Of a stretch of 64,000 nt of DNA, positions 976 to 15,982 are shown piece by piece. The notes beneath the pieces were generated by a model. It made no database searches, had not been told where the DNA came from, and saw only the letters and a program-made list of their open reading frames with translations. Numbering within the stretch: the first letter of the stretch is position 1; each line of letters begins with the position of its first letter. Location of the stretch: the NCBI GenBank assembly GCA_018268595.1, contig JAFDWH010000009.1, positions 62,001-126,000 on the forward strand, given 5' to 3'. The position numbers and the translations under genes were made by a program. This DNA comes from Actinomycetota bacterium (GTDB lineage Bacteria; Actinomycetota; Thermoleophilia; Solirubrobacterales; Solirubrobacteraceae).

Positions 976-3066
976 TCAGGCGACGGCGGCGCCGGTGGCG
1001 ACCACCGGCTCGATAATCGCCGCCGGCTGCGGGACGCGGGCCGGCTCGCCCGCCGGACGCGCGGGGACGGGCTCGCCGGGACGGCGCCCGCGCACCTCGT
1101 GGTGGCTGCAGACGACGTAGCACCACTCCATCAGCGCCACGCGCGCCGCCGGCTCGAGCTCGACGATGCGCGTCCCCAGCACGAAGCCCTCCGCGGCCGG
1201 ACGGCACGAGCGCACCTCGGCCACGACGTGCACGTCGCGCACGCAGCCCTCGCTGTCCTCCAGGTCCAGGCGCACCGGCATGCGCACGCCGGCGTCGACC
1301 GGCGCGGTCGCCAGCAGGCCGAGGCCGGCAGCGTTCGCATCCAGCAGGCGCGCGGAGACCGAGCCGCCGGGCGTGAGGCAGACAGCGGGCGCGTCGCCCT
1401 CGAAGCGGTAGATCAGGCGGCGCTGGCGGCGACCGGCCACCAGCACGAGCGTGCGCAGGACGCGCCGCAGCTCGATCACCGCCAGAAGCGGGATCAGGAC
1501 GTCGGCGATCGGCGGCAGGTCCGGCAGCGGGCCGACGCCCCACAGGTCGAGCACGCGCATCACGATCCCGGCCGTCAGCGCGAACGCCAGGAAGCAGGCG
1601 ATCTTCAGCCGCGCGAGCGCGTGCGTCCCGCCGAGGTCGATCCCCTCCTTGGGCGTGACCTTGAAGGCGGTCTTCGCCGGCACGATCGCGCAGCGCAGCG
1701 CGCGCGCGTAGATGCCCATCGTCATCAGCTCGTAGTGCGTCGTCTCGGCGATCCGCATGTAGCCGCGCGCGAGCGCCGAGCCGGCCGCGAGGTTGAGCAC
1801 GAGCGCGGGCGCCCACAGCGTCGCGAGCGCGAGCCAGTCGACGCGCATCGGCAGCCAGCCGGACCACAGCACGAGCGCGAGCGTCAGCAGCAGCAGCAGG
1901 CGCATCGGCGGCGCGAGGTAGGAGGCGAGGCTGACGAAGTAGGAGAGCCGCTGGAGCGGTCTCAGCTCGCGCGCGCGCAACGGCGACTCCCGCAGCGTGA
2001 AGACGGCGAGGTTCCCGCGCGACCAGCGGTCGCGCTGCAGCAGGTAGCCGTCGAGGTCGTGCGGCGCGAGGCCCTGCACGAGCACCTCGTCGTGGTAGCG
2101 GGACGTCCAGCCGTGGCGCTGCAGGCGGATCGTCGTGTGGAAGTCCTCCGCGATCGTCTCGGTCGCGACGCCGCCGATTCCCAGCAGCGCGTCGCGGCGG
2201 ATGACGGCCGCCGAGCCGCACCAGAAGGCGGCGCCGTGGCGGTCCTTGCCGGGGCAGATCACGTGGTAGAAGAGCGACTGCTCGTGACGCCCGACGGCGT
2301 AGTGCTGGACGGAGTCCTGGTTGGAGAAGTCGTGCGGGCTCTGCACGAGCGCGACCTGCGGGTCCTCGAAGTAGCCGACGAGCGCGTCGAGCGCGTCCGG
2401 CATCGGCACGTGGTCGGCGTCGAGCACGAACACGAGCTCGCCGTCGGTGCGCGGCAGCGCGGCGTTGATGTTGCCCGCCTTCGCGTGGCTGTTGTCGGGG
2501 CGCGTGAGGTAGCGCGCGCCGGTCAGCTCCGCGAGCGCGCGCATGTTCTCGCGGCGGCCGTCGTCGAGCAGGTAGGTCGTGTGCGGGTAGCGCAGCGCAC
2601 GGCAGCCGGCGAGCGTCGCGAGCACGACCTCCTCCGGCTCGTCGTAGGTGCAGACGTAGACGTCGACCGGCGGGTGGCTGACGATCGGCGGGCGCGTCAC
2701 GGGCGTGCGCCTCCAGGAGAACCACGTGAGCGTGCCGAGCGCCCAGATGCCGTACAGCTCGGTGACGAGCAGCATCGCGAAGGTGACCGGGCTCGCGCCC
2801 GCGCCCGTCCAGCCGACGCGCCACGTCAGGTAGACGGCGCCCCACGCCAGCGCGGCGAGCGCGATCGTGCGCGTGAGGCGGTGGTGGCGCTCGAAGAAGC
2901 GCCCGTAGCGCGGGCGCGCGTCGCGCCCGCGCGCCTCGGTGCCGACGCGCCCGGCGATCCAGGCGGTGCCGAGCGCGAGCCGCAGCAGGCGGCCGGCGTC
3001 GGGGTGGAGGCGGTTGCGGAGGCGGCCGACCATGGCGGTTGGATCGGCGCGCCGACGTTCGTCCAC
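976..3066 (-). CDS. membrane family-2 glycosyltransferase with PilZ-like domain
   Basis: This 696-residue processive glycosyltransferase resembles bacterial cellulose synthase (BcsA-like). Two N-terminal membrane segments (about 65-115) precede a GT-A domain with DDG at 168-170, DAD at 216-218, the general-base motif AED at 306-308 and QRDRW at 344-348. Four or so membrane helices follow, then a C-terminal PilZ-like domain (about 560-680). It would polymerise a beta-linked glycan across the membrane, probably under cyclic-di-GMP control. The PilZ second motif reads DANAAG instead of D/NxSxxG, so binding is uncertain. No bcsB or bcsC homologue is nearby, so the polymer may not be cellulose. 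The GTG at 3066 gives the longest frame; ATG at 3033 is an alternative start. Confidence 0.85.
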   Translation of the reverse strand: MDERRRADPTAMVGRLRNRLHPDAGRLLRLALGTAWIAGRVGTEARGRDARPRYGRFFERHHRLTRTIALAALAWGAVYLTWRVGWTGAGASPVTFAMLLVTELYGIWALGTLTWFSWRRTPVTRPPIVSHPPVDVYVCTYDEPEEVVLATLAGCRALRYPHTTYLLDDGRRENMRALAELTGARYLTRPDNSHAKAGNINAALPRTDGELVFVLDADHVPMPDALDALVGYFEDPQVALVQSPHDFSNQDSVQHYAVGRHEQSLFYHVICPGKDRHGAAFWCGSAAVIRRDALLGIGGVATETIAEDFHTTIRLQRHGWTSRYHDEVLVQGLAPHDLDGYLLQRDRWSRGNLAVFTLRESPLRARELRPLQRLSYFVSLASYLAPPMRLLLLLTLALVLWSGWLPMRVDWLALATLWAPALVLNLAAGSALARGYMRIAETTHYELMTMGIYARALRCAIVPAKTAFKVTPKEGIDLGGTHALARLKIACFLAFALTAGIVMRVLDLWGVGPLPDLPPIADVLIPLLAVIELRRVLRTLVLVAGRRQRRLIYRFEGDAPAVCLTPGGSVSARLLDANAAGLGLLATAPVDAGVRMPVRLDLEDSEGCVRDVHVVAEVRSCRPAAEGFVLGTRIVELEPAARVALMEWCYVVCSHHEVRGRRPGEPVPARPAGEPARVPQPAAIIEPVVATGAAVA

Positions 3067-3096
3067 GAGCGCTGTGGACGGATGTCCGGGATCTCG

Positions 3097-3121
3097 CGGC
3101 CGGCGCTCAAGGCGCCGGCCG
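3097..3121 (-). terminator. hairpin terminator of ssrA
   Basis: A perfect 10-bp GC-rich stem (3097-3106 with 3112-3121) encloses the 5-nt loop TCAAG and begins 4 nt beyond the tmRNA 3' end. No U-tract follows. It separates ssrA from the glycosyltransferase gene downstream. Confidence 0.6.
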
Positions 3122-3124
3122 GAG

Positions 3125-3490
3125 TGGAGACGCCGGGAATCGAACCCGGGTCCGCGGTCGCGTGAAAGGCAGCGTCTACGAGCGTAGCCGGCGCTCTGGT
3201 CTCGTCCCCCGCTCGCCTCGCCGGCGGGGTTGCGGGGGGCCAGCCTCCTGAAGTTGTCCCCGGTTCGGCGGAGGCGGGCCTCGCCGGGTGAGCCTGCGTT
3301 CTGATTCCGGCGAAACCCCGCGGCAGGCTGGCGGGGGCCGAAACCTCACGGCTTAGCTAGGTGCTAAGCGGCGAGGGCGTACTCGTGAGAGTCCGCACGT
3401 ATGGTTTTCCCGGTGGTTTTACGAGGCCTACCGGGACCTCGGCTCGCAACCACCCCCACGAGAACAACCACGTCGAAGCCTGTCGTCCCC
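3125..3490 (-). ncRNA. ssrA: transfer-messenger RNA (tmRNA)
   Basis: This tmRNA rescues ribosomes stalled on broken mRNA and tags the nascent chain for proteolysis, together with SmpB (6199-6681). The 5' end GGGGACG pairs with the 3' CGTCTCC to form a 7-bp acceptor stem with one G-U pair, and the discriminator A is at 3125. The T-arm GGTTCGATTCC is intact. The CCA end is not encoded. The tag frame starts at a GCG resume codon and reads A-D-S-H-E-Y-A-L-A-A before TAG, ending in the usual ALAA degron. The tRNA-like ends and the mRNA-like core between them give about 366 nt, a normal length. A TACACT box about 20 nt upstream of the mature end may be the -10 element of a precursor. Confidence 0.95.
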
Positions 3491-3534
3491 TGGGGTTTAC
3501 TGCGCCCTCAAGTGTAGCTGCCACACTCCCTTCC

Positions 3535-4389
3535 ATGGATCAGCGCGTCGAGTGGCTGCCGCCCGCAACGCCCACGCCGGCCACGCCGGAGGACGTCGGG
3601 CTGCCGCCCGCCCGCCCGCGCAGCGGCGTCAAGCGCCTCGCCGGCCCGCTCGCCGTGCTCGCGGCCGCCGCGGCGAAGCTCAAGGGCCTGCTCCTGCTGC
3701 TGCCGAAGCTGAAGCTGCTGACGACCTCCGGCACGATGCTCGTCTCGGTCGCCGCCTACAGCCTGATCTGGGGCTGGCGCTTCGCGGCCGGCTTCGTGCT
3801 GCTGCTGCTCGTGCACGAGCTGGGGCATGTGATCCAGCTGCGTCGTGAGGGCCTGGAGGCGAGCGCGCCGATGTTCATCCCGTTCCTCGGCGCGGTCGTC
3901 GCGGCGAAGTCGCTCGGCGACGACGCGGCGGCCGAGGCGCGCGTCGGCCTCGCCGGCCCGGTGCTCGGCTCGCTCGGCGCGGCGCTGCTGATCCCCGTCT
4001 GGCTCGCGACCGGGAACGAGCTGTGGCGGGCGCTCGCGTTCACCGGCTTCTTCCTCAACCTCTTCAACCTGCTGCCGGTCGTGCCGCTCGACGGCGGCCG
4101 CGCGATGGCGGCGATGGCGCCGTGGATGTGGTTCGCGGGGCTCGCCGCGATGGCCGCGCTCGCGATCGCCTTCCCCAATCCGATCATCCTGCTGATCCTC
4201 GCGTTTGCCGCGCTCTCGACGTGGCAGCGCTGGAAGGCGCGCCGCGCCGGCGGCGCAGAGGCCGCGGCCTACTACCGCGTGAAGCCGGCGCACCGCGCGG
4301 CGATCGCCGTCGTCTACGTCGGCCTGATCGCCGCGCTCGTGCTGGGCATGGACGCGACGCACATCGCGCGCACGTTCGCCGACGCCTGA
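3535..4389 (+). CDS. M50-type membrane metalloprotease
   Basis: This 284-residue site-2-protease-family membrane protein has the zinc-binding HELGH at residues 94-98 inside a hydrophobic helix. The partner motif PLDGG sits at 184-188, with Asp186 as the third ligand. At least five membrane segments are predicted by eye. The N-terminal 30 residues are Pro-rich. Enzymes of this fold cut membrane-embedded substrates, often anti-sigma factors, but no such partner lies adjacent. The frame is open from 3361, but that would run antisense through ssrA, so the ATG at 3535 is chosen. The gene diverges from ssrA and precedes the EACC1/caspase pair by 68 bp; a functional link is possible but unproven. 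Confidence 0.85.
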   Translation: MDQRVEWLPPATPTPATPEDVGLPPARPRSGVKRLAGPLAVLAAAAAKLKGLLLLLPKLKLLTTSGTMLVSVAAYSLIWGWRFAAGFVLLLLVHELGHVIQLRREGLEASAPMFIPFLGAVVAAKSLGDDAAAEARVGLAGPVLGSLGAALLIPVWLATGNELWRALAFTGFFLNLFNLLPVVPLDGGRAMAAMAPWMWFAGLAAMAALAIAFPNPIILLILAFAALSTWQRWKARRAGGAEAAAYYRVKPAHRAAIAVVYVGLIAALVLGMDATHIARTFADA

Positions 4390-4442
4390 GCGAGCGGCTC
4401 GGCCTCCCGTCTACGGGTCGGCTCGCCGGCCGGGGGCGGACT

Positions 4443-4448
4443 TAGACT
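4443..4448 (+). promoter_or_regulatory. -10 box upstream of EACC1/caspase pair
   Basis: TAGACT lies 9 nt before the ATG at 4458, and no Shine-Dalgarno sequence lies between. This implies a leaderless or very short-leader transcript, so the pair probably has its own promoter. No convincing -35 box is visible. Confidence 0.4.
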
Positions 4449-4457
4449 TTCCGCGCG

Positions 4458-4859
4458 ATGGAAAACGCCGGAAGCTCCAAGCTGCTGACCGTGCAGATCG
4501 GGCTCGGTCCAGACGCCGAAGCGGAGGACTTCGACGCCGCGGCACTCGCGCTTCGACGCGAGCTGCTGGAGCTTGACGCGGTCGACGCGCGTCGCGCGCC
4601 GGGCCCTCCGGCGCGCGACGGCGCACGCGCGCTCGACGGCCCGCTGCTCGGCGCCCTGCTCGTCACCGCCAGCGACGGTGCGATCCCGGCGATCCTCCAG
4701 CTGCTCGGCGCGTGGGCGCGCCGCGGGCCCGAGCGCAGCGTGAAGCTGAAGCTCGGCGACGATGCGATCGAGGTCACCGGCGTGACGGACGCGACGCAGC
4801 GCGAGCTGATCGACGCGTTCCTCGCGCGCAATCGCTCGCACCCGTCCGATCGGCGATGA
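4458..4859 (+). CDS. EACC1-like caspase-associated small protein
   Basis: This is a 133-residue soluble protein. The C-terminal half alternates beta-rich segments and an amphipathic helix: a helical stretch AIPAILQLLGAWARRG, then VKLKLGDDAIEVTGVT, then a helix ending the protein. That pattern (a helix followed by a strand giving the sense 'x-is-I-x-V', then a helix) matches the effector-associated constant component 1 (EACC1) proteins described next to bacterial caspase and trypsin effectors. It overlaps the caspase gene by 4 bp (ATGA), so the two are translationally coupled. In such systems the small component is proposed to regulate or link the effector. Family assignment is from memory of the pattern and would need a profile search. 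Confidence 0.6.
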   Translation: MENAGSSKLLTVQIGLGPDAEAEDFDAAALALRRELLELDAVDARRAPGPPARDGARALDGPLLGALLVTASDGAIPAILQLLGAWARRGPERSVKLKLGDDAIEVTGVTDATQRELIDAFLARNRSHPSDRR

Positions 4860-6211
4860 CCGACGGCTCGCGCCACGCGCTCGTCGTCGCCGGCTCCCGC
4901 TACGAGGACCCGAAGCTGCGGCAGCTGCGGTCGCCCGCGACAGACGCCGAGCGGCTCGCCGGCGTGCTCGGCGATCCGGCGATCGGCGACTTCGCCGTTG
5001 AGAGCGCGATCGACGAGTCGGAGGGAGCGCTGCGCCGGCGCATCGCCGCCTTCCTCGCCAACCGCCGCTCCGACGACCTGCTGCTGCTGCACTTCTCGTG
5101 CCATGGCGTCCAGGACGAGGGCGGCGAGCTGCATCTCGCCGCCCGCGACACCGAGATCGAGCTGCTGGGTGCGACGAGCATCGCCGCGTCGTGGCTGAGC
5201 GAGCAGATCGCGCGCAGCCGCTCGAAGCGGATCGTGCTGCTGCTGGACTGCTGCTTCAGCGGCTCGTTCCCGTTCGGCCTGCGAGCGCGGGCCGGAGAGA
5301 CGATCGCGGTGACGCCGCACCTCGACGGTCGTGGACGCGTGGTGATCACCGCCTCGAGCGCGATGGAGTACTCCTGGGAGGGGGATCACCTGTCCGCGGA
5401 GCCGTCGCCCTCGGTCTTCACGCAGGCGGTGCTGGAGGGCCTGGAGACGGGCGCAGCCGATCGCGACGGCGACGACTGGGTCTCCGTCGACGAGCTCTAC
5501 GACTACGTCTGCGACCGCGTCCACGAGCGGGCGCCGTACCAGCGGCCGCAGAAGAAGAGCGACGTCGACGGCGCGATCCTGCTCGCGCGGACGCCGGCCG
5601 TCCCGCCCGCGCCGAGCGTCCCCCGCACGCCGCCGCGCACGCAGACCGCGACGAGCACACGGCCGGCGCCACGTCCCGCCGCGACGCTGGCACCGGAGCG
5701 CATCGCGGCGACGAGCGATCTTGCCCAACCGCGCGTCGTGTTCCGCTGGCCGCAGCGGCGCGACCGGGTGCTGGCGACGCTCGTCGACGGGCCGCTCGTG
5801 CTGCTCGCCGGCCTGCTGCCGGCGCTGGCGGTCGCGCTGCCGCTCGACGCGCTGGCGTCGTCCACCGCGGCGGGCCTCGTCTTCTACGTCACGGTCCTGC
5901 CGCTCGGCGGCGCCGGCTATCTGACGCTGCTGGCGGCCTTCCACCGCGACCGCACGCTCGGCCAGCAGCTCCGCTCGCTGCGCGTCGTCGCGCCCGACGG
6001 CGGCGAGGCGTCGCTGCGACGACGGTCGCTGCGGGAGGCGCTGAAGTGGGCGGTGCCGATCGCCTCGCTGTTCACCCTGGGGCTGCTCGGGCGCCTCGCG
6101 TGGCGGCACGTCAAGCGTCGTCGGCGCCCGTTCTACGACCGCGTCGCCGGCACATCGCTCGTGCAGGCGGAGCTGCTGGCCGCGGAGCTGCCGCCGGCTC
6201 AGCGCATGTGA
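4856..6211 (+). CDS. caspase-like protease with C-terminal RDD membrane domain
   Basis: This 451-residue protein fuses two domains. Residues 1-240 form a C14/metacaspase-like protease: the first strand is HALVVAGSRY, the catalytic His83 sits in HFSCHG, and Cys133 in LLLDCCFSG. A Pro/Thr-rich linker spans about 250-300. The rest is an RDD membrane domain with RRDRVLATLVDG, TLGQQLRSLRVV and FYDRVAGTSLV and about three membrane helices. The protease would thus face the cytoplasm, tethered to the inner membrane. Bacterial caspases paired with EACC1 are predicted conflict or cell-death effectors. The ATG at 4856 overlaps the upstream stop. The 3' end overlaps smpB convergently by 13 bp. Confidence 0.85.
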   Translation: MTDGSRHALVVAGSRYEDPKLRQLRSPATDAERLAGVLGDPAIGDFAVESAIDESEGALRRRIAAFLANRRSDDLLLLHFSCHGVQDEGGELHLAARDTEIELLGATSIAASWLSEQIARSRSKRIVLLLDCCFSGSFPFGLRARAGETIAVTPHLDGRGRVVITASSAMEYSWEGDHLSAEPSPSVFTQAVLEGLETGAADRDGDDWVSVDELYDYVCDRVHERAPYQRPQKKSDVDGAILLARTPAVPPAPSVPRTPPRTQTATSTRPAPRPAATLAPERIAATSDLAQPRVVFRWPQRRDRVLATLVDGPLVLLAGLLPALAVALPLDALASSTAAGLVFYVTVLPLGGAGYLTLLAAFHRDRTLGQQLRSLRVVAPDGGEASLRRRSLREALKWAVPIASLFTLGLLGRLAWRHVKRRRRPFYDRVAGTSLVQAELLAAELPPAQRM

Positions 6212-6681
6212 TCGCGCAGCTCGCGCTGCACGTCGCGCGCCATCTCGCGACTCTTGATCGCCTCGCGCTTGTCGAAGCGGTCCTTGCCCTGCGCGAGCGC
6301 CAGCTCGACCTTCGCGTGCGGGCCTCTGAAGTAGATCCGCGTCGGCACGAGCGTCAGCCCGCGCTCTCTCGCTCTGCCCACGAGGCGGTCGATCTCGCGG
6401 CGTCTGAGCAGCAGCTTGCGGTCGCGCTCGGGCGCGTGGTTGTCGTGGTAGGCGGGCGCGTACGGCGGGATGTGCAGGTGGTGCAGCCACACCTCGCCTT
6501 CTCTGACGGTCGCGTACGCGTCCTTCATCTGCGCGCCGCCGGTGCGCAGCGACTTCACCTCGGTCCCCTTCAGGACGATCCCGCACTCGACCGTGTCGAG
6601 CAGGTTGAAACGGTGGCGCGCCTGCCGGTTGGTCGCCACGTCGCCCGGCGCGAACTTGCGCTTGCCCTTGCCCTTCGCCAT
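6199..6681 (-). CDS. smpB: SsrA-binding protein SmpB
   Basis: This 160-residue RNA-binding protein delivers tmRNA to stalled ribosomes. The conserved landmarks are present: ATNRQARHRFNLLDTVECG near the N-terminus, GTEVKSLR, the LHIPPY segment, KLLLRRREIDRLVG, and the C-terminal tail KSREMARDVQRELR that enters the mRNA channel. The ATG at 6681 (MAKGKGKRKFAPG) is chosen. The frame is open 52 codons further, but that extension is Arg-rich and lies inside rnr. The gene follows rnr with an 11-bp gap and lies about 2.7 kb from ssrA on the same strand, so the trans-translation partners are linked. Confidence 0.97.
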   Translation of the reverse strand: MAKGKGKRKFAPGDVATNRQARHRFNLLDTVECGIVLKGTEVKSLRTGGAQMKDAYATVREGEVWLHHLHIPPYAPAYHDNHAPERDRKLLLRRREIDRLVGRARERGLTLVPTRIYFRGPHAKVELALAQGKDRFDKREAIKSREMARDVQRELRDHMR

Positions 6682-6692
6682 GACGGACAGCC

Positions 6693-8459
6693 TTACATCT
6701 CGACGGGCAGCAGGTCGACCCGCCCGCGCGCCGTGTCGACGCGATCCACCTGCACGCGCACGCGGTCGCCGATGCGGATCGCCGCGCCGCTGCGCGTGCC
6801 TTCGAGGATCGTGCCCTCCTCGTTGAGCTCCCACCACTCGCCGCGCAGCTTGCGCACCGGCAGCATCCCCTCATGCCCGTCGCCGAAGACGACGAACGCG
6901 CCGGCGCCGATCACGCCCGTCACCTCGCCCTCGAAGTCCTGCTCCCAGCCGCGCTCGAACAGCTCGCGCTCGAGCAGGAACGCGCGCGCGACGTCGTCGG
7001 CGGCCCGCTCGACGCTCATCGCGTCGCGCTCGCGCGCGGAGCACCAGTCGCCCGCGCCGGGCAGCGCGCTCGCCTTCGGCGCCTCCTCCCCGCCGCCGAC
7101 GGCGCTCAGCAGCGCGCGGTGGCAGACGAGGTCGGGATAGCGCCGGATCGGCGAGGTGAAGTGGCAGTAGTGCGTCAGGCCGAGGCCGGCGTGGCCGAGG
7201 TTCGCGGGGTCGTAACGGGCCAGCTTGAGCGAGCGCAGCACGAGCCCGTTGAGCCCGATCATCCCCTGGCCGGTGCGCTGGACGTGCTGCTCGACGAGGT
7301 GCGAGCACTGCGCGATCGTCTCCGCCGCCTGCTGCGGCGTGAGGTACTCGGGCGTCGGCGGCGTCGCCACGTCGAGCGAGGCGAGCTGCGCGACGAGGCG
7401 CTCGGCGGCCTCCCCCTCGGGCCGCTCGTGGACGCGGTAGAGCGTCGGGACGCTGCGGTCGGACAGCAGCTTCGCGACCTGCTGGTTGGCGAGGATCATC
7501 AGGTGCTCGATCAGGCGATGCGCCTCCGTCTGCACGACGCGATGCTGCGCGGTCACGTGGCCCTGGGAGTCGAACGCGAAGTCGGGCTCGACCGACTCGA
7601 CCGCCAGCGCCCCGCCGCGCTCGCGCTCGGCCTGCAGCGCGGCCGACGCCTCGCGCGCCGCCGCGAGCGGCTCCGCCCACGGCGTCTCCGGATGCTCGCG
7701 CAGCGCGAAGATGCGGTCGACCTGGTCGTAGTCGAGCCGCTTGTCGGAGCGGATCAGCGAGCGGTAGAACGCGCTGCGCACGACGCTCACGCCGTCGAGG
7801 TCGAGCTCGACCGTGACGGCGTTGCGGTCCTCGCCGGGCCGCAGCGAGCAAGCGCCGTTGGAGAGCGCCTCCGGCAGCATCGGCTCGACCTTGCCGGGGA
7901 CGTAGACGCTCGTGCCGCGCCGGTAGGCCTCCTTGTCGACGAGCGACCCGGGCCGCACGTAGGCGGAGACGTCCGCGATGTGGACCCAGATGCGCCATCT
8001 GCCCTCGCCGCGCCGCTCGGCCGAGATCGCGTCGTCGAAGTCCTTCGCGGTCGCCGGGTCGATCGTGAACGTCGTCAGGTCGCGCAGGTCGCGGCGCGCG
8101 ACGTCCGGCACGCCGTCGCCCTCCGCTGCTTCGCGCGCGGCGCGCTCGACCGCCGGGTCGAAGCGGCGCCTGAGCCCGCGGTCGAGCATCAGCGCCTCCA
8201 GCACGTCGCGTGCGACGTCCGGGCGGCCGATCCGCCGCTCGACCTTGGCGTGGCCGCGACCGCCCTGTCCTCCCCGCCCGCCGGCCCGCAGCAGCACCAG
8301 GTCGCCGACGCGCGCTCTGCGGTCCGCGTCGACGATCAGCTGCGCGGCGCGCCCGAAGAACGGGTCGCCGACGAGGAAGCGCCCGCGCTTGTCGAGCACC
8401 GCGACGACGCTCGCACGGGGGGCGACGCGCTCCCCGTCGCGTGGCTGCCAGCGCGTCAC
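6693..8459 (-). CDS. rnr: ribonuclease R / RNase II family exoribonuclease
   Basis: This 588-residue 3'-5' exoribonuclease has an N-terminal cold-shock-like region, the RNB catalytic domain (about 115-450) and a C-terminal S1 domain with [15 protein letters not shown]. The RNB domain contains the metal-binding [15 protein letters not shown], with its Asp cluster, and [14 protein letters not shown], and further on [12 protein letters not shown]. It is shorter than E. coli RNase R (about 800 residues) because the N-terminal extension is missing. RNase R degrades the defective mRNA released by trans-translation, which fits its position immediately upstream of smpB. The GTG start overlaps the stop of the S41 peptidase gene by 4 bp. 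Confidence 0.93.
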
Positions 8460-9664
8460 CGTGGCTCGGCGGCCAGCTGTCTCAGCGCCGCGTCGAGCGC
8501 CTCGTCGCGCCGCGTCGTGTCGGGGTTGTCGGAGGCGCGCACGTCGGGCGCGATGCCTCTGCCCTCGGCGACGCCTCTGCCGCCGATGTTGCGCCCGCTC
8601 GGCAGGAAGTACTGGCCGACCGTCAGGTCGAGCGCGCCGCCGTTCGGCAGCTCGCGGATCTCCTGGAAGACGCCCTTGCCGTAGGTGTTGGTGCCGACGA
8701 CCTCGGCGCGTCTGCGGTCCTGCAGCGCGCCGGTGACGATCTCCGCCGAGGAGGCGGTCCCGCGGTCCACGAGCACGACGACGGGCACCTTGCCGGGGAT
8801 CGCGCCGCCCGTCGCGGTGTAGACGTGGCGGGCGCGGGCGCGCCCGTCGGTCGAGACGATCGTCCCGTCCGGGAGGAAGATCGAGGCGACGCCGACCGCC
8901 TCGTCGAGCAGCCCGCCGCCGTTGCCGCGCAGGTCGAGCAGGATGCCGTCGGCGCCGGCGCTCAGCAGCCGCTCGACGGTCGCGTGCACCTGTCCGGCCG
9001 AGCCCTGCGTGAAGCTCGTGTAGATCACGTCGCCGTAGCGCTTCCCGCGCCAGCGCACGATGCGGCCGGCGACGACCGGCTGCGTCACGCGCGCGCGTTC
9101 GATCGCCTGCGTCGTGCGTCTGCCGTGGCGCTCGATCGTGAGCGTGACCTTCGTGCCCGGCTGCCCCTTGATCAGCGCGATCGACGCGCTCGACGGGCGC
9201 CCGGCGAGCGATCTGCCCTCCACCGCGACGATGCGGTCGCCGCGCCGCAGGCCCGCTCTCGCGGCCGGCGTGCCGGCGATCACCGACTCGATCGTGAGCG
9301 GCCCGCTCGGGTCCGGCCGCACGGTCACGCCGATGCCGCTGAAGCTCGGGTTCGTGACCTGCTCGAAGCGCTTGTACGTGGTCGGGTCGAAGTAGTGCGA
9401 GAACTGGTCTCCGAGGCTCGCGACGGCGCCCTCGATGCCGCGGTCGACCAGCTGACTGCGGGAGACCTTGCGGTAGTAGATCCGGTCGATCGTGTCGACC
9501 GCCTGCTGCATGAGGCGCGTGTCGTCGTTGCCGGCGAAGGCGTCGCGGATCGGGCCGGGCAGCCCGCTGGGATGGCCGCCCAGGTAGATCCCCAGCAGCA
9601 GCACGGCGAGCGCCCCGAGCGCGACGGCGAGGGCGCGCCCGATGCGGGGGAAGCGGCGAGTCAC
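8456..9664 (-). CDS. S41 C-terminal processing peptidase, membrane-anchored
   Basis: This 402-residue serine protease of the CtpA/Prc family has an N-terminal membrane anchor (residues about 9-28) with the catalytic part outside. A PDZ domain spans about 105-190 ([21 protein letters not shown]). The catalytic dyad is Ser305 in [10 protein letters not shown] and Lys330 in NTYGKGVFQ, 25 residues apart as in E. coli Prc. Such enzymes trim or degrade envelope proteins; in other Gram-positives ctpB lies near ftsEX. It is the first gene of a ctp-rnr-smpB operon. The GTG start has TACGCT 6 nt upstream and no Shine-Dalgarno sequence, so it may be leaderless. Confidence 0.92.
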
Positions 9665-9670
9665 CGGGTC

Positions 9671-9713
9671 AGCGTACCGACCGGCGCCGCTCGCCCCGGT
9701 CGCTGGGTACGCT
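9671..9713. promoter_or_regulatory. divergent promoter dyad
   Basis: AGCGTACC (9671-9678) and GGTACGCT (9706-9713) are inverted. An inner pair GACCGG/CCGGTC (9679-9684, 9696-9701) can extend the hairpin past a GCTG bulge. Each outer arm carries an outward-facing TACGCT -10 box. The minus-strand box sits 6 nt before the S41 peptidase GTG; the plus-strand box would serve the aldehyde dehydrogenase, which has GGAGG at 9740-9744. Confidence 0.4.
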
Positions 9714-9748
9714 CGACGGAGCCGTCGATCCTCAGTCCTGGAGGCCCC

Positions 9749-11191
<1,443 letters not shown>

Positions 11192-11309: not shown

Positions 11310-12857
11310 ATGATCGAGTTGCCGATGGCCGGTGCGGCGAAGGGCCAGCAGGGCGCTGGCTGCCGGGCCGGTGCCAAGAGGACGGACTGCGGCGCAGGCG
11401 CCGGCGGCGACGGCGGGGTGATCGCCGAGCGCGCCGCGGCGCTCCAGGCCGAGATGACCGAGCGGCTGCGCGCGGTCCGCGCGCGTCGAGCTCTGCCGAC
11501 GCCATACGTCGAGCGGCCCCAAGTCGACGTCGACCTCGACTCCGCCGCCTCGCTCCCGCTGGTCGCGCCGCTCGCGCACCGGCGCGTCGACGGCGCGCAC
11601 CTGTGGGTCGCCGTCGAGCAGGGCGCCGTCCTCGTCTTCGACGACGCCGATGACGCGCGCTTTCGGCAGCTCGCGCAGGGCGCCTCCCCGCGTGCGATCG
11701 CCTCGCGCGAGCTCGGGCGCACAGCCGACGGCGACGACGTCGCGCGGCACCTCGGCGACCTGCTCGGCCGCATCGCCAGCGCCGGCTTCCTGACGTCCAC
11801 CAGCGGGCTCCACGGCAGCCGCGTGCCGACGCCCCACCGCTTCGCGCGGCTGCATCTGACGAAGGCGTGCCAGCTCCAGTGCGTGCACTGCTACGCGGAC
11901 TCCAGTCCGACGGTCGACCGCTCCGGCGAGCGCCCGCTCGCCTGGTGGCGCGCCCTGCTCGACGAGCTGGCGGAGGTGGGCACGGAGCGCGTCCTGTTCA
12001 CGGGCGGCGAGGCGCTCGTGCACCGCGGGTGCCTTGGGCTGATGGAGCACGCGAAGACGCTCGGACTGCACGTCACGCTGTTCACGAACGGCATCAAGGT
12101 GCCGAAGCTGATCGACCGGATCGCCGCAAGCTGCGATCAGGTCCAGGTCAGCCTCGACGGCCCGTCGCCGGAGATCAACGACCCGATCCGGGGCAAGGCG
12201 AGCTACAGCCGCGCCGTGCGCGCGCTCGACGCGCTGCTCGAGACGGACGTGCAGGTGCGCGTGGGCATCACGAGCATGGCGTCCAACTGGGAGGCGTGGC
12301 GCGAGCAGTTCGCTCGCTTCGCCGAGCGCTTCGCGCACACCGACCTCGAGTACAAGATGAGCTTCGGGATCACTGAGCACGGCCGCGCCGAGGGCATCGG
12401 CGAGCAGCTCGATCCAGAGGCCGCCAAGGCGCAGGTGGAGCGGCTCCTGTCCGGACGACGCGGCAGCCAGCTCGGTCCCCGCGTGACGCGCCGCACGACC
12501 GGATGCGGGTACTTCGAGCAGATCGTCGTCGGCCCCGACGGCACGCTCTACCCCTGCCATCTGCTGGACGCGCCCCTCGGCAACGCCGACGACAAGCCGC
12601 TGGGCGCGTGGGTGGAGGAGCTCACGCACCTGGCGACGCTCTTCAGCGTCGACTACACGGACGGCTGCGCGAGCTGCGACATCCGCTACCTCTGCGGCGG
12701 GACCTGCCGCGTCATGAACGCGAAGCGCACCGGCAGCCGGCTCATCACCACCTGCACGGACGCCGACAAGCAGCGGCGCTATCGCAACCTCGTCAAGTAC
12801 TACGCGGCGGACGCACGGCCGTCAGGCGCCGTCGCACTGCCAGTCCACCACGAGTAG
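11310..12857 (+). CDS. PqqD-like/radical SAM/SPASM peptide maturase
   Basis: This is a 515-residue enzyme. After a Gly/Cys-rich N-terminus (1-36), residues about 82-162 look like a PqqD-type RiPP recognition element (LWVAVEQGAVLVF, then DVARHLGDLLGRIASAGFL). The radical SAM core follows with Cys187, Cys191 and Cys194 in CQLQCVHC (CX3CX2C) and the SAM-binding TGGE at 231-234. A textbook SPASM domain closes the protein: Cys399, Cys416, then CX2CX5CX3C at 453-466, and Cys482, enough for two auxiliary Fe-S clusters. Such enzymes form thioether or carbon-carbon links in ribosomal peptides. The precursor gene begins 14 bp downstream. The ATG is supported by a good Shine-Dalgarno sequence. Confidence 0.9.
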   Translation: MIELPMAGAAKGQQGAGCRAGAKRTDCGAGAGGDGGVIAERAAALQAEMTERLRAVRARRALPTPYVERPQVDVDLDSAASLPLVAPLAHRRVDGAHLWVAVEQGAVLVFDDADDARFRQLAQGASPRAIASRELGRTADGDDVARHLGDLLGRIASAGFLTSTSGLHGSRVPTPHRFARLHLTKACQLQCVHCYADSSPTVDRSGERPLAWWRALLDELAEVGTERVLFTGGEALVHRGCLGLMEHAKTLGLHVTLFTNGIKVPKLIDRIAASCDQVQVSLDGPSPEINDPIRGKASYSRAVRALDALLETDVQVRVGITSMASNWEAWREQFARFAERFAHTDLEYKMSFGITEHGRAEGIGEQLDPEAAKAQVERLLSGRRGSQLGPRVTRRTTGCGYFEQIVVGPDGTLYPCHLLDAPLGNADDKPLGAWVEELTHLATLFSVDYTDGCASCDIRYLCGGTCRVMNAKRTGSRLITTCTDADKQRRYRNLVKYYAADARPSGAVALPVHHE

Positions 12858-12871
12858 GAGGCCCGACGCCG

Positions 12872-13159
12872 ATGCCCGACCCAGAGAACCCGGAGCTGCC
12901 CGAGATCCCGCAGCCGCAGGTCAAGCCGGAGTTCGCCAACGACGTCAAGACAAGGCTGCGCAGAGCGCCCGACGGAGAGCTGCACCATGCGACGACGGTG
13001 CACGTCGACCTGCCGGAACCGCTCGCGGAAATCCTCAAGAGACACGACCTCGCGGTGAAGTTCAAGAGCCGTGAGCTGTCCAGAATTCTGCTCGACCAGT
13101 CGGCCGGCATGGTGTCCACCGACGGGTGCATCTCCTCGCCCGGCGGCCCCGGCTGCTAG
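12872..13159 (+). CDS. candidate RiPP precursor peptide
   Basis: This 95-residue peptide is encoded between two modification-enzyme genes. It has an acidic, Pro-rich N-terminus (MPDPENPELPEIPQP), a middle segment with amphipathic helix (LPEPLAEILKRHDLAVKF) typical of a leader bound by a PqqD-like domain, and a C-terminal tail STDGCISSPGGPGC. The only two cysteines, Cys86 and Cys95, are in that tail, 9 apart, with the second as the final residue. The tail is low in complexity and unlike the rest, as expected for a core peptide. The ATG is preceded by GTAGGAGG at 12855-12862. The precursor role is inference from position, size and composition; I do not recognise the family. Confidence 0.75.
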   Translation: MPDPENPELPEIPQPQVKPEFANDVKTRLRRAPDGELHHATTVHVDLPEPLAEILKRHDLAVKFKSRELSRILLDQSAGMVSTDGCISSPGGPGC

Positions 13160-13163
13160 GCCG

Positions 13164-14345
13164 GTGAGCGCCCTCCCCGCCTCGCCGCCGGCCGCCGCAA
13201 GTGGCTCGGCCTGGTCCGACGACGTCCTCGTCGCGACGCTCGTCGCGCTGATGCGCGCGGGCGCGATCGCCTCCGAGACGAGCCACGACGACTATGCGGT
13301 CGCGCGCGCGATCGACGTGCCGAAGCTCGTCGCGACGCAGACGAAGGCAGTCGACTGGCTCAGCCTGGTCCGAGCGGGATCGGTCCTCGACGCGTCCGTC
13401 TGGTCACTTCCGGAGGGGTCGCCCGATGCGCGCCGCGTCGCATCCGCCTACCGCGCCGGGTACAGCCTCGTGATGCGCCGGCTGCATCTGCGCGTGCCGG
13501 CGGTCGCGGCGCTCGCGCGGCGGCTCGACCAGGCGCTCGCCGACGCCGGCGTGCTCTTGCGTCAGGCCATCCGCTCGAACCTGTTCGCCTCGCCGGCGGG
13601 CGCCACCGGCCTCGCGCTGCACTACGACGACCACGACGTGGCAGTGCTGCAGCTCTCGGGCGAGAAGCGCTGGACGGTCTACGAGCCCGTCTACCGCCAT
13701 CCGCTCGAGCACCCTGCCAAGCACCTGGAGCCGGAGGACTGCCGCGAGTGCGCGTTCGAGGGGGTGCTGCGACCAGGCGGGCTGCTGTTCATCCCGCGCG
13801 GCTGCCCGCATCGCGCGCACACCACCGAGGCGCCTTCGGTTCACATCACGCTCGGCGCGACGCGCTGCACGTGGCTGGACCTCGTGCAAGCCGCGGCGCC
13901 CCATGCGGAGGCGCTGCGCGCCGACCTGCCGCCGCTCGCGGGCGGGCGGCTCGACTCGGACGAGCGGCTTGCGCGGGCGCTCATGGACGACGAGGCCGTC
14001 GCGGCGGCGCTGGGAGATCTCGCCGAGCGCTGGACGCAGACCGCGACGGTCGGCGCGGGCCCGCCCGACTGGGACGTGCCGAGCGCCCCGCTCACGCCCG
14101 CGTCGCTGGTGCGCCGGACCGTCGCATCGCTCAGCGTCCTCGTCGAGCACGCCGACGGCGACGCGACGCTGTGCAACCAGTCGCTGCGGCTGCGCGGCGC
14201 GCGCGACGCCGCGCTGCTGCGCTTCCTGCATGAGCGCGAGCAGTTCGCCGTTCACGAGCTCCCGCTCGAGCCCGCACCCGTCGCGCAGCTCGAGCTCGTG
14301 GAGCGGCTGCTGTCCGACGGCGTCCTGGAACGCGTCGAGGCGTGA
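13164..14345 (+). CDS. JmjC/cupin Fe(II)-2-oxoglutarate oxygenase, RoxA/YcfD-like
   Basis: This 393-residue protein resembles ribosomal-oxygenase-type JmjC enzymes (Cupin_4). The facial triad is visible: His153 and Asp155 in ALHYDDHDVAVLQLSGEKRW, and His216 in IPRGCPHRAHTT. The strand pattern around them (L-Q-L-x-G-x-K-R-W-x-V-Y and G-G-L-L-F-I-P) matches the family. The C-terminal part (about 260-393) is helical, as in the winged-helix end of the family. Known members hydroxylate Arg or His in ribosomal proteins; here the location suggests hydroxylation of the precursor peptide, which is inference. GTG at 13164 starts 4 bp after the precursor stop. The 3' end overlaps the next gene by 1 bp (TGATG). 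Confidence 0.8.
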   Translation: MSALPASPPAAASGSAWSDDVLVATLVALMRAGAIASETSHDDYAVARAIDVPKLVATQTKAVDWLSLVRAGSVLDASVWSLPEGSPDARRVASAYRAGYSLVMRRLHLRVPAVAALARRLDQALADAGVLLRQAIRSNLFASPAGATGLALHYDDHDVAVLQLSGEKRWTVYEPVYRHPLEHPAKHLEPEDCRECAFEGVLRPGGLLFIPRGCPHRAHTTEAPSVHITLGATRCTWLDLVQAAAPHAEALRADLPPLAGGRLDSDERLARALMDDEAVAAALGDLAERWTQTATVGAGPPDWDVPSAPLTPASLVRRTVASLSVLVEHADGDATLCNQSLRLRGARDAALLRFLHEREQFAVHELPLEPAPVAQLELVERLLSDGVLERVEA

Positions 14346-15982
14346 TGCGCGCAGCGCACGGGGTCTTCGTCTGCGCCCCGTTCCACTCAACCGCCAACCC
14401 GCCGGTCGGGATCGCGTACCTGCGCGCGTCGCTCGCGCGCGCCGGCATCGAGTCGACCGTCGAGGACCTCAACATCGAGGCGCGCCGCGCGCTGCACGAG
14501 CTGCTCGCGGACGATCTCCGCGCCCGCGCGTCGGTCGACGAGCTGTTCATGCAGGCGCGCCGCTCCTATCTCGGCGAGGCGCTCGCGTGGTCGTGGCTCG
14601 ATCCCGACGGAGCCGAGGCGGTCGTCGCTCGCGCGATCCGTCATCCGTCGGCCGCGCTGCGCGCCTTCTGGCGCGCGGTGGGTGTCGAGCGCCTGACCGG
14701 CGACCCCGAGCTGACGCGGCTCGGCGAGCTGCTGCGCGGGTGGCTCGCGGAGCGGACGCTGATGCTCGCGGGCCGCGACGTCGGCTGGGTGGGCCTGTCG
14801 CTGACCGTCGGCAACCTCGCCGCCTCGTACTACGTGGCGGCGCTGCTGCGCGACGCGCGCCCCGATCTGCTCCTCGTCGCCGGCGGACCGCACGTCTCCC
14901 CCCGCAACGCCGCCGGCGTGCTGCGCGGATGCCCCGCCTTGGACGCGGTCGCCCTGAGCCCCGCCTACGACGCGCTCGCGCGCCTGCTGAGCGGCGAGGA
15001 GGACCGCCCGCGCGGGATCCTCACCCGTGCAGACGGCTCGCAGGCGGCGATCGCGCCGCCGCGCCATCCGCCGCTCGACGAGCTGCCGTTCGCCGACTGG
15101 TCCGGCATCGAGCTCGCGCGCTATGCGCCGTCGTTCGACGTCTCGTACGCGCGCGGCCGCGACTGCGCCGACGTCCGCACGATGCCCCTGCAGACCTCGC
15201 GCGGCTGCGCCTACGCGCGCTGCGAGTTCTGCCACAACGTCGTCGACTATCCGCGGCTGCTGATGCAGACGCCGGCACGCGTCGCGGCGGAGGTCGAGGA
15301 GCAGCACAGCCGCCACGGCGTCGTGAACTTCTTCTTCACCGACGACGAGTTCAACAGCTCGCGCCGTCGCGTGCGCGAGATCGGCGCGCGGCTCCTCGCC
15401 GGCGGACTCGACGTCCGCTTCATGGCGTGGATGCGCATCGACAAGATCGACGAGGCGATGCTCGACGACCTCTATGCCGGCGGCTGTCGGCAGGGCTTCT
15501 TCGGCGTCGAGGCCGTCGACGACGAGCTGCTCGACGCGATGACGAAGGGCTACGACGCGGACCGGGCGCTCGCCGGCCTGCGGCTGCTGCGGCGCTTCGC
15601 GCAGGCGCAGCCGGACTTTCGCTTCGACTTCAACCTCATCGTCGATCATCCGCGTGAGCGGCTGCAGTCGGTCACAGCCACGTTGCGAACCGTCTGCGAG
15701 GAGCCCGACCTGTTCGTCGGGCACCTCGCGGCGCTGTGCCGCTACCACGTCTACGAGGGGACCCCGGCCTTCGCCCGCTACGGACGCGAAGCGGTCGGCT
15801 GCCTCGATCCGATCGTCCCGCCCGGCGTGCCCGTCGACAGCTTCCGGTATCTGCTGCCGATCGACGACGCGCGGGACCTCGAGGCCCGGATGGAGGCATG
15901 GTCCGCCGTCGAGCAGCTGGCGGCGCTCGGGCGGCGAGGCGGGGCCGCTGTGGGACCGTCCGGGGTCGGGATCTACGACTAG
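14345..15982 (+). CDS. B12-binding radical SAM protein
   Basis: This 545-residue protein has an N-terminal cobalamin-binding Rossmann-like region (about 1-230), opening with ANPPVGIAYLRASLARAGI and including VGLSLTVGN and LLVAGGPHVSPRN. The radical SAM barrel follows (about 275-480). The cluster cysteines are Cys288, Cys293 and Cys296 in GCAYARCEFC, a CX4CX2C spacing rather than CX3CX2C. B12-radical SAM enzymes often methylate unactivated carbons, and several act on RiPPs. It is the last gene of the locus, coupled to the oxygenase gene by a TGATG junction. It ends 7 bp from the convergent ftsX stop, with no terminator between. Confidence 0.88.
   Translation: MRAAHGVFVCAPFHSTANPPVGIAYLRASLARAGIESTVEDLNIEARRALHELLADDLRARASVDELFMQARRSYLGEALAWSWLDPDGAEAVVARAIRHPSAALRAFWRAVGVERLTGDPELTRLGELLRGWLAERTLMLAGRDVGWVGLSLTVGNLAASYYVAALLRDARPDLLLVAGGPHVSPRNAAGVLRGCPALDAVALSPAYDALARLLSGEEDRPRGILTRADGSQAAIAPPRHPPLDELPFADWSGIELARYAPSFDVSYARGRDCADVRTMPLQTSRGCAYARCEFCHNVVDYPRLLMQTPARVAAEVEEQHSRHGVVNFFFTDDEFNSSRRRVREIGARLLAGGLDVRFMAWMRIDKIDEAMLDDLYAGGCRQGFFGVEAVDDELLDAMTKGYDADRALAGLRLLRRFAQAQPDFRFDFNLIVDHPRERLQSVTATLRTVCEEPDLFVGHLAALCRYHVYEGTPAFARYGREAVGCLDPIVPPGVPVDSFRYLLPIDDARDLEARMEAWSAVEQLAALGRRGGAAVGPSGVGIYD

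Follow-up and report, generated by a model that had tools for sequence, protein, structure and literature searches.

Among described RiPPs, the closest counterparts of the locus analysed here, which lies in a 64 kb stretch of DNA that we call the window, are sactipeptides such as streptosactin (StsB/GggB) and SKF (SkfB), with CteB as a structural relative. These likewise combine a Cys-containing C-terminal core with an adjacent SPASM maturase that has a probable N-terminal RiPP recognition element (RRE). The streptosactin maturase connects Cys with Gly and Ser that lie three residues further downstream (PMC8172795). A second point of comparison is the biphenomycin pathway (bip/bpm/pbs), in which a single ribosomal precursor is the substrate of both a JmjC hydroxylase and a B12 radical SAM enzyme, the latter cross-linking rather than methylating it (PMC12707348, PMC12257519). 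However, biphenomycin is made from an FRF core with an MNIO and an arginase. Neither enzyme is encoded in the window cluster, where a SPASM enzyme and a Cys-containing core are found instead. In comparison with sactipeptides, in turn, the window cluster carries JmjC and B12 radical SAM tailoring as extras. Literature searches for the tail motif described below and for RiPPs combining JmjC and SPASM enzymes did not find this family described, and the precursor very probably belongs to a RiPP family without earlier description.

At this locus four genes, for a SPASM radical SAM enzyme, a precursor, a JmjC oxygenase and a B12-binding radical SAM enzyme, read as one tight operon. The features of the window are:

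9767 to 11191, plus strand: aldehyde dehydrogenase, inside a 6.3 kb region missing from relatives; pathway membership uncertain
11310 to 12857, plus strand: radical SAM/SPASM maturase, 515 aa, with CX3CX2C at 187-194 and a seven-Cys SPASM at 399-482
11535 to 11825, plus strand: predicted RiPP recognition element in the N-terminal maturase segment, three strands and three helices in a single-sequence model
12872 to 13159, plus strand: precursor peptide gene, 95 aa, translation MPDPENPELPEIPQPQVKPEFANDVKTRLRRAPDGELHHATTVHVDLPEPLAEILKRHDLAVKFKSRELSRILLDQSAGMVSTDGCISSPGGPGC and then stop
13124 to 13159, plus strand: conserved C-terminal motif GCxSxxGGPxC-stop, from the motif and the homologue alignment
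13164 to 14345, plus strand: JmjC_2 (PF08007) Fe(II)/2-oxoglutarate-type oxygenase, 393 aa, with H153-X-D155 and H216
14342 to 15982, plus strand: B12-binding radical SAM enzyme, 546 aa, with B12 and radical SAM domains

The SPASM radical SAM stop is followed after 14 nt by the precursor ATG, which has a good ribosome-binding site, AGGAGG, upstream; the precursor gene ends 4 nt before the JmjC start, and the JmjC and B12 radical SAM genes overlap by 4 nt. As a preliminary description of the locus had stated, translation of 12872-13159 (plus strand) gives a peptide whose only Cys residues are 86 and 95, with Cys95 in the final position. Residues 1-80 would form the leader and the putative core comprises approximately residues 81-95, VSTDGCISSPGGPGC. 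The 64 kb window contains the pattern GCxSxxGGPxC-stop a single time, none of 100 dinucleotide shuffles reproduced it, and among 326 genomes of the phylum it falls at a plausible gene end in the window only. The three other pattern matches in the phylum were discarded, two being antisense to likely genes and the third ending in TGG, not a stop. The tail DNA pattern also turned up in two viral contigs, where we attribute it to chance in phage DNA.

A tblastn search with the window precursor recovered a homologous precursor gene on a plasmid of Mycetohabitans endofungorum, and a search with the Mycetohabitans radical SAM protein led to a locus on the megaplasmid of Streptantibioticus cattleyicolor. 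In the latter the precursor is an unannotated ORF (4468-4746 of locus L011) ending in TASTGCFSNIGGPSC. The known family thus defined has three members, from two classes of Actinomycetota and from the Betaproteobacteria. The S. cattleyicolor-like genome is assigned to the phylum of the window genome but not to its class, which suggests that the window comes from Actinomycetota of a different class. Each of the three precursors contains exactly two Cys, 9 apart, the second being the last residue, and in their alignment GCxSxxGGPxC-stop is invariant, the constant residues other than Cys being Gly85, Ser88, Gly91, Gly92 and Pro93. Over the last 14 residues the two homologues are identical to the window peptide at 11 and 7 positions, against maxima of 4 and 6 in 2000 shuffles. 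The N-terminal halves, on the other side of the alignment, are nearly unrelated among the three, with leader scores close to those of shuffled controls. The preliminary description had proposed just such an alignment, expecting the tail to be conserved and the N-terminal half to vary, with the opposite pattern as an argument for an accessory role. The homologous tails do keep both Cys, the GG pair and the Pro, with the stop codon following the last Cys immediately, and conservation is not concentrated in the N-terminal part. In contrast, its suggestion of an Asp side chain as a modification site is weakened. Asp84 is replaced by Thr in S. cattleyicolor, so an obligatory Cys-Asp link is unlikely, and we rejected Asp84 as an obligatory acceptor. 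Weak precursor matches in two genomes of the same family (L007, L008) covered residues 20-80 only, without the tail, and were judged to be chance; that in L007 is situated among unrelated frames.

The neighbourhood is conserved together with the tail, in agreement with the earlier pairing of the precursor with a SPASM partner. Radical SAM and JmjC partners are present at all three loci. Overall, the radical SAM proteins are 41-42% identical (46% for that of Mycetohabitans when its catalytic part is compared), and the Mycetohabitans JmjC protein is 31% identical to the one in the window. In Mycetohabitans the precursor is flanked by the radical SAM gene and the JmjC gene. In S. cattleyicolor the precursor ORF is followed by a JmjC/2OG fusion, a radical SAM gene, a JmjC gene, a TfuA-YcaO fusion and PhyH. 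Since precursor, SPASM enzyme and JmjC enzyme are common to the three loci, these constitute, as judged from gene content, the minimal pathway; TfuA-YcaO, PhyH, the second 2OG oxygenase and the B12 radical SAM enzyme are optional tailoring. The TfuA-YcaO fusion of S. cattleyicolor recalls the TfuA-YcaO thioamidated RiPPs, and some Streptomyces plasmids also pair JmjC with TfuA and YcaO. However, the window genome lacks YcaO altogether (a control search was positive in 5 of 14 genomes), and the annotation of the Mycetohabitans stretch shows none either; thus, thioamidation is not the shared chemistry of the family.

The SPASM motif of the maturase is complete (CX11GX4C...CX2CX5CX3C...C at 399-482), with ligands for two auxiliary clusters. 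The curated model that fits the maturase best is that of the sactipeptide maturase StsB (NF045574), with 108 bits where the cut-off is 625, and SkfB reaches 55 bits against 300; these are the nearest named RiPP models, and all NCBIfam matches lie far below their cut-offs, so that the chemistry cannot be assigned by homology. With a three-sequence profile the closest solved structures are SkfB and CteB, the CteB alignment beginning at residue 96, within the N-terminal domain. A model of residues 76-172, built from a single sequence and of modest confidence (mean pLDDT 61), has the order strand-strand-strand-helix-helix-helix, which is the signature of RREs (PMC12710340). Foldseek places this modest-confidence model nearest to the leader-binding RRE TbiB1 and the sactipeptide maturase CteB (E 0.03-0.8). 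An additional RRE sought at the C-terminus of the JmjC protein had no support, the model being all-helical and of low confidence.

The JmjC protein matches JmjC_2 (PF08007) with 86.6 bits against a gathering score of 22, and H153, D155 and H216 are invariant across five aligned relatives. It resembles the NO66/MINA protein hydroxylases, ribosomal oxygenases with which it has in common the JmjC_2 domain and the HxD...H metal site. However, the similarity is confined to the JmjC region, and the window protein is encoded with a peptide precursor in an operon. The B12-binding radical SAM enzyme is nearest to the NCBIfam model of a RiPP maturation C-methyltransferase (TIGR03975), at 82 bits, below the cut-off of 282. 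Its cysteines are arranged as C289-X4-C294-X2-C297, a CX4CX2C spacing that is unusual compared with the usual CX3CX2C. These two partners, which the preliminary description did not use, broaden the likely chemistry of the locus, with three types of metalloenzyme paired on a core of ~15 residues.

A variable leader, a conserved C-terminal core and adjacent modifying enzymes conserved across species together indicate a RiPP architecture. This layout, the constancy of the partners and the integrity of domains and motifs are evident from the sequences, which strongly support the role of precursor. We put forward, with a probability of about 0.8, that the 95-aa peptide is a RiPP precursor whose tail is modified by the radical SAM and JmjC enzymes. 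From leader binding through thioether formation, hydroxylation and methylation to cleavage, we infer the following course. The leader would be bound by the predicted RRE at the N-terminus of the SPASM enzyme, which would then abstract hydrogen from a conserved core residue, the candidates being Gly85, Ser88, Gly91 and Gly92. Coupling of that residue to Cys86, Cys95 or both as a thioether would enclose the GGP turn in one or two small rings. Hydroxylation of a side chain in the core might fall to the JmjC enzyme, and methylation or further cross-linking of the core to the B12 radical SAM enzyme; a protease encoded elsewhere would remove the leader.

Taken alone, thioether formation by the SPASM enzyme is a step that we favour slightly: it is the likeliest reaction, given that the nearest characterised RiPP maturases form thioethers and that both Cys are invariant. 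The acceptors of streptosactin are Ser and Gly, and the window tail offers both. Nevertheless, in the links of streptosactin and ruminococcin C that were examined the Cys lies upstream of its acceptor, while in the window family one Cys is the last residue. By analogy, Cys86 could act as in streptosactin, with a downstream acceptor, but Cys95 cannot. As nothing follows Cys95, a ring through it needs an upstream acceptor, or this residue serves another purpose, such as a disulfide, a cluster ligand or recognition. Its invariance raises the question of whether a SPASM enzyme is able to bond a C-terminal Cys with a residue that precedes it. It is conceivable, if rather doubtful, that the C-terminal Cys, with its free carboxylate, is a thioether donor of reverse polarity, which would make this a new RiPP class. 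In that scenario, tentative as a whole, a GGP-containing ring would be closed first and would then undergo JmjC hydroxylation and C-methylation by the B12 radical SAM enzyme; if true, the conserved stop behind the Cys would be required by the chemistry. Since the maturase scores far below the model cut-offs and a thioether is only inferred, we do not file the family as a sactipeptide, although it may still work like one.

The peptide might also be a RiPP precursor on which the SPASM enzyme makes something other than a thioether: a C-C or C-O link, or an epimerisation or dehydrogenation at Ser, Gly, Ile or Pro, with the Cys pair forming a disulfide or used by another enzyme. In its favour, Ser, Gly and Pro of the tail equal the Cys in conservation, the chemistry of SPASM enzymes is diverse, no NCBIfam model is matched above its cut-off, and the S. 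cattleyicolor TfuA-YcaO fusion could act on the backbone. We consider this the less probable course, as the closest named RiPP maturases and the profile-matched structures form thioethers, and both Cys are invariant, with exact spacing. More distant is a scenario in which the 95-aa product releases no peptide and is instead an accessory partner or a small structural protein, for example a subunit with a tail that is cross-linked without leaving the protein, quinohemoprotein amine dehydrogenase being the model. The window cluster contains no dedicated protease and no exporter or transporter gene, which speaks for such a role. Yet no dehydrogenase subunits are recognisable in the cluster either, and the homologues show no conservation ahead of the tail, where scores fall near those of shuffled sequences, which makes this scenario improbable. 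Finally, high GC yields many open frames, and the precursor ORF could in principle be one of these, its neighbours acting on something else. This idea is refuted by the homologues, with a tail conserved in another phylum beside the same enzymes, and by a motif that no shuffle reproduced; we give it practically no weight.

The genomic setting provides clues on the origin of the operon. The gap between ftsX and ctpA measures ~50 to 1000 bp in four congeneric genomes, without any cluster genes, and 6.3 kb in the window, and the four operon genes have deviant codon usage, with a third-position GC lower than that of their neighbours. From this absence in congeners and the codon usage, the operon looks acquired. 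The aldehyde dehydrogenase at the ftsX-ctpA junction (9767-11191) is also absent there in the four congeners; its codon usage is housekeeping-like. A search of genome contigs with the window radical SAM protein gave remote radical SAM matches only. Beyond the window genome, orthologues were found solely in S. cattleyicolor itself among the genomes searched from the order (232), the phylum (396) and the Streptomycetaceae (394). A sample of the class Actinomycetes (296 genomes, in a profile search with no known positive there) yielded none, which is weak evidence of absence, and phages gave no match. The tail motif GCxSxxGGPxC-stop defines a small, probable RiPP family, spanning two phyla and occurring on plasmids.

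The RiPP-like Mycetohabitans cluster (4060-9381 of locus L009) has an IS5 element on one side and an IS481 element on the other, and its plasmid is typed as conjugative. That of S. cattleyicolor (4468-12694 of L011), whose precursor probably has a GTG start, is unannotated in the plasmid record NC_016113.1; the strain, NRRL 8057 = DSM 46488, is a deposited culture-collection strain, which makes product searches practical. On Streptomyces vietnamensis pSVL1 (L015) and Streptomyces sp. WAC00288 p1 (L018), at ~2300-9800, a JmjC_2 cupin lies beside TfuA, YcaO, a methyltransferase and a carbamoyltransferase, with no precursor annotated and an intergenic 32-aa ORF near-identical in both plasmids. 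A JmjC-type cupin is again found in a RiPP context on Pseudanabaena galeata pPg_03 (L016), near a LanM lanthipeptide synthetase and an NHLP secretion gene.
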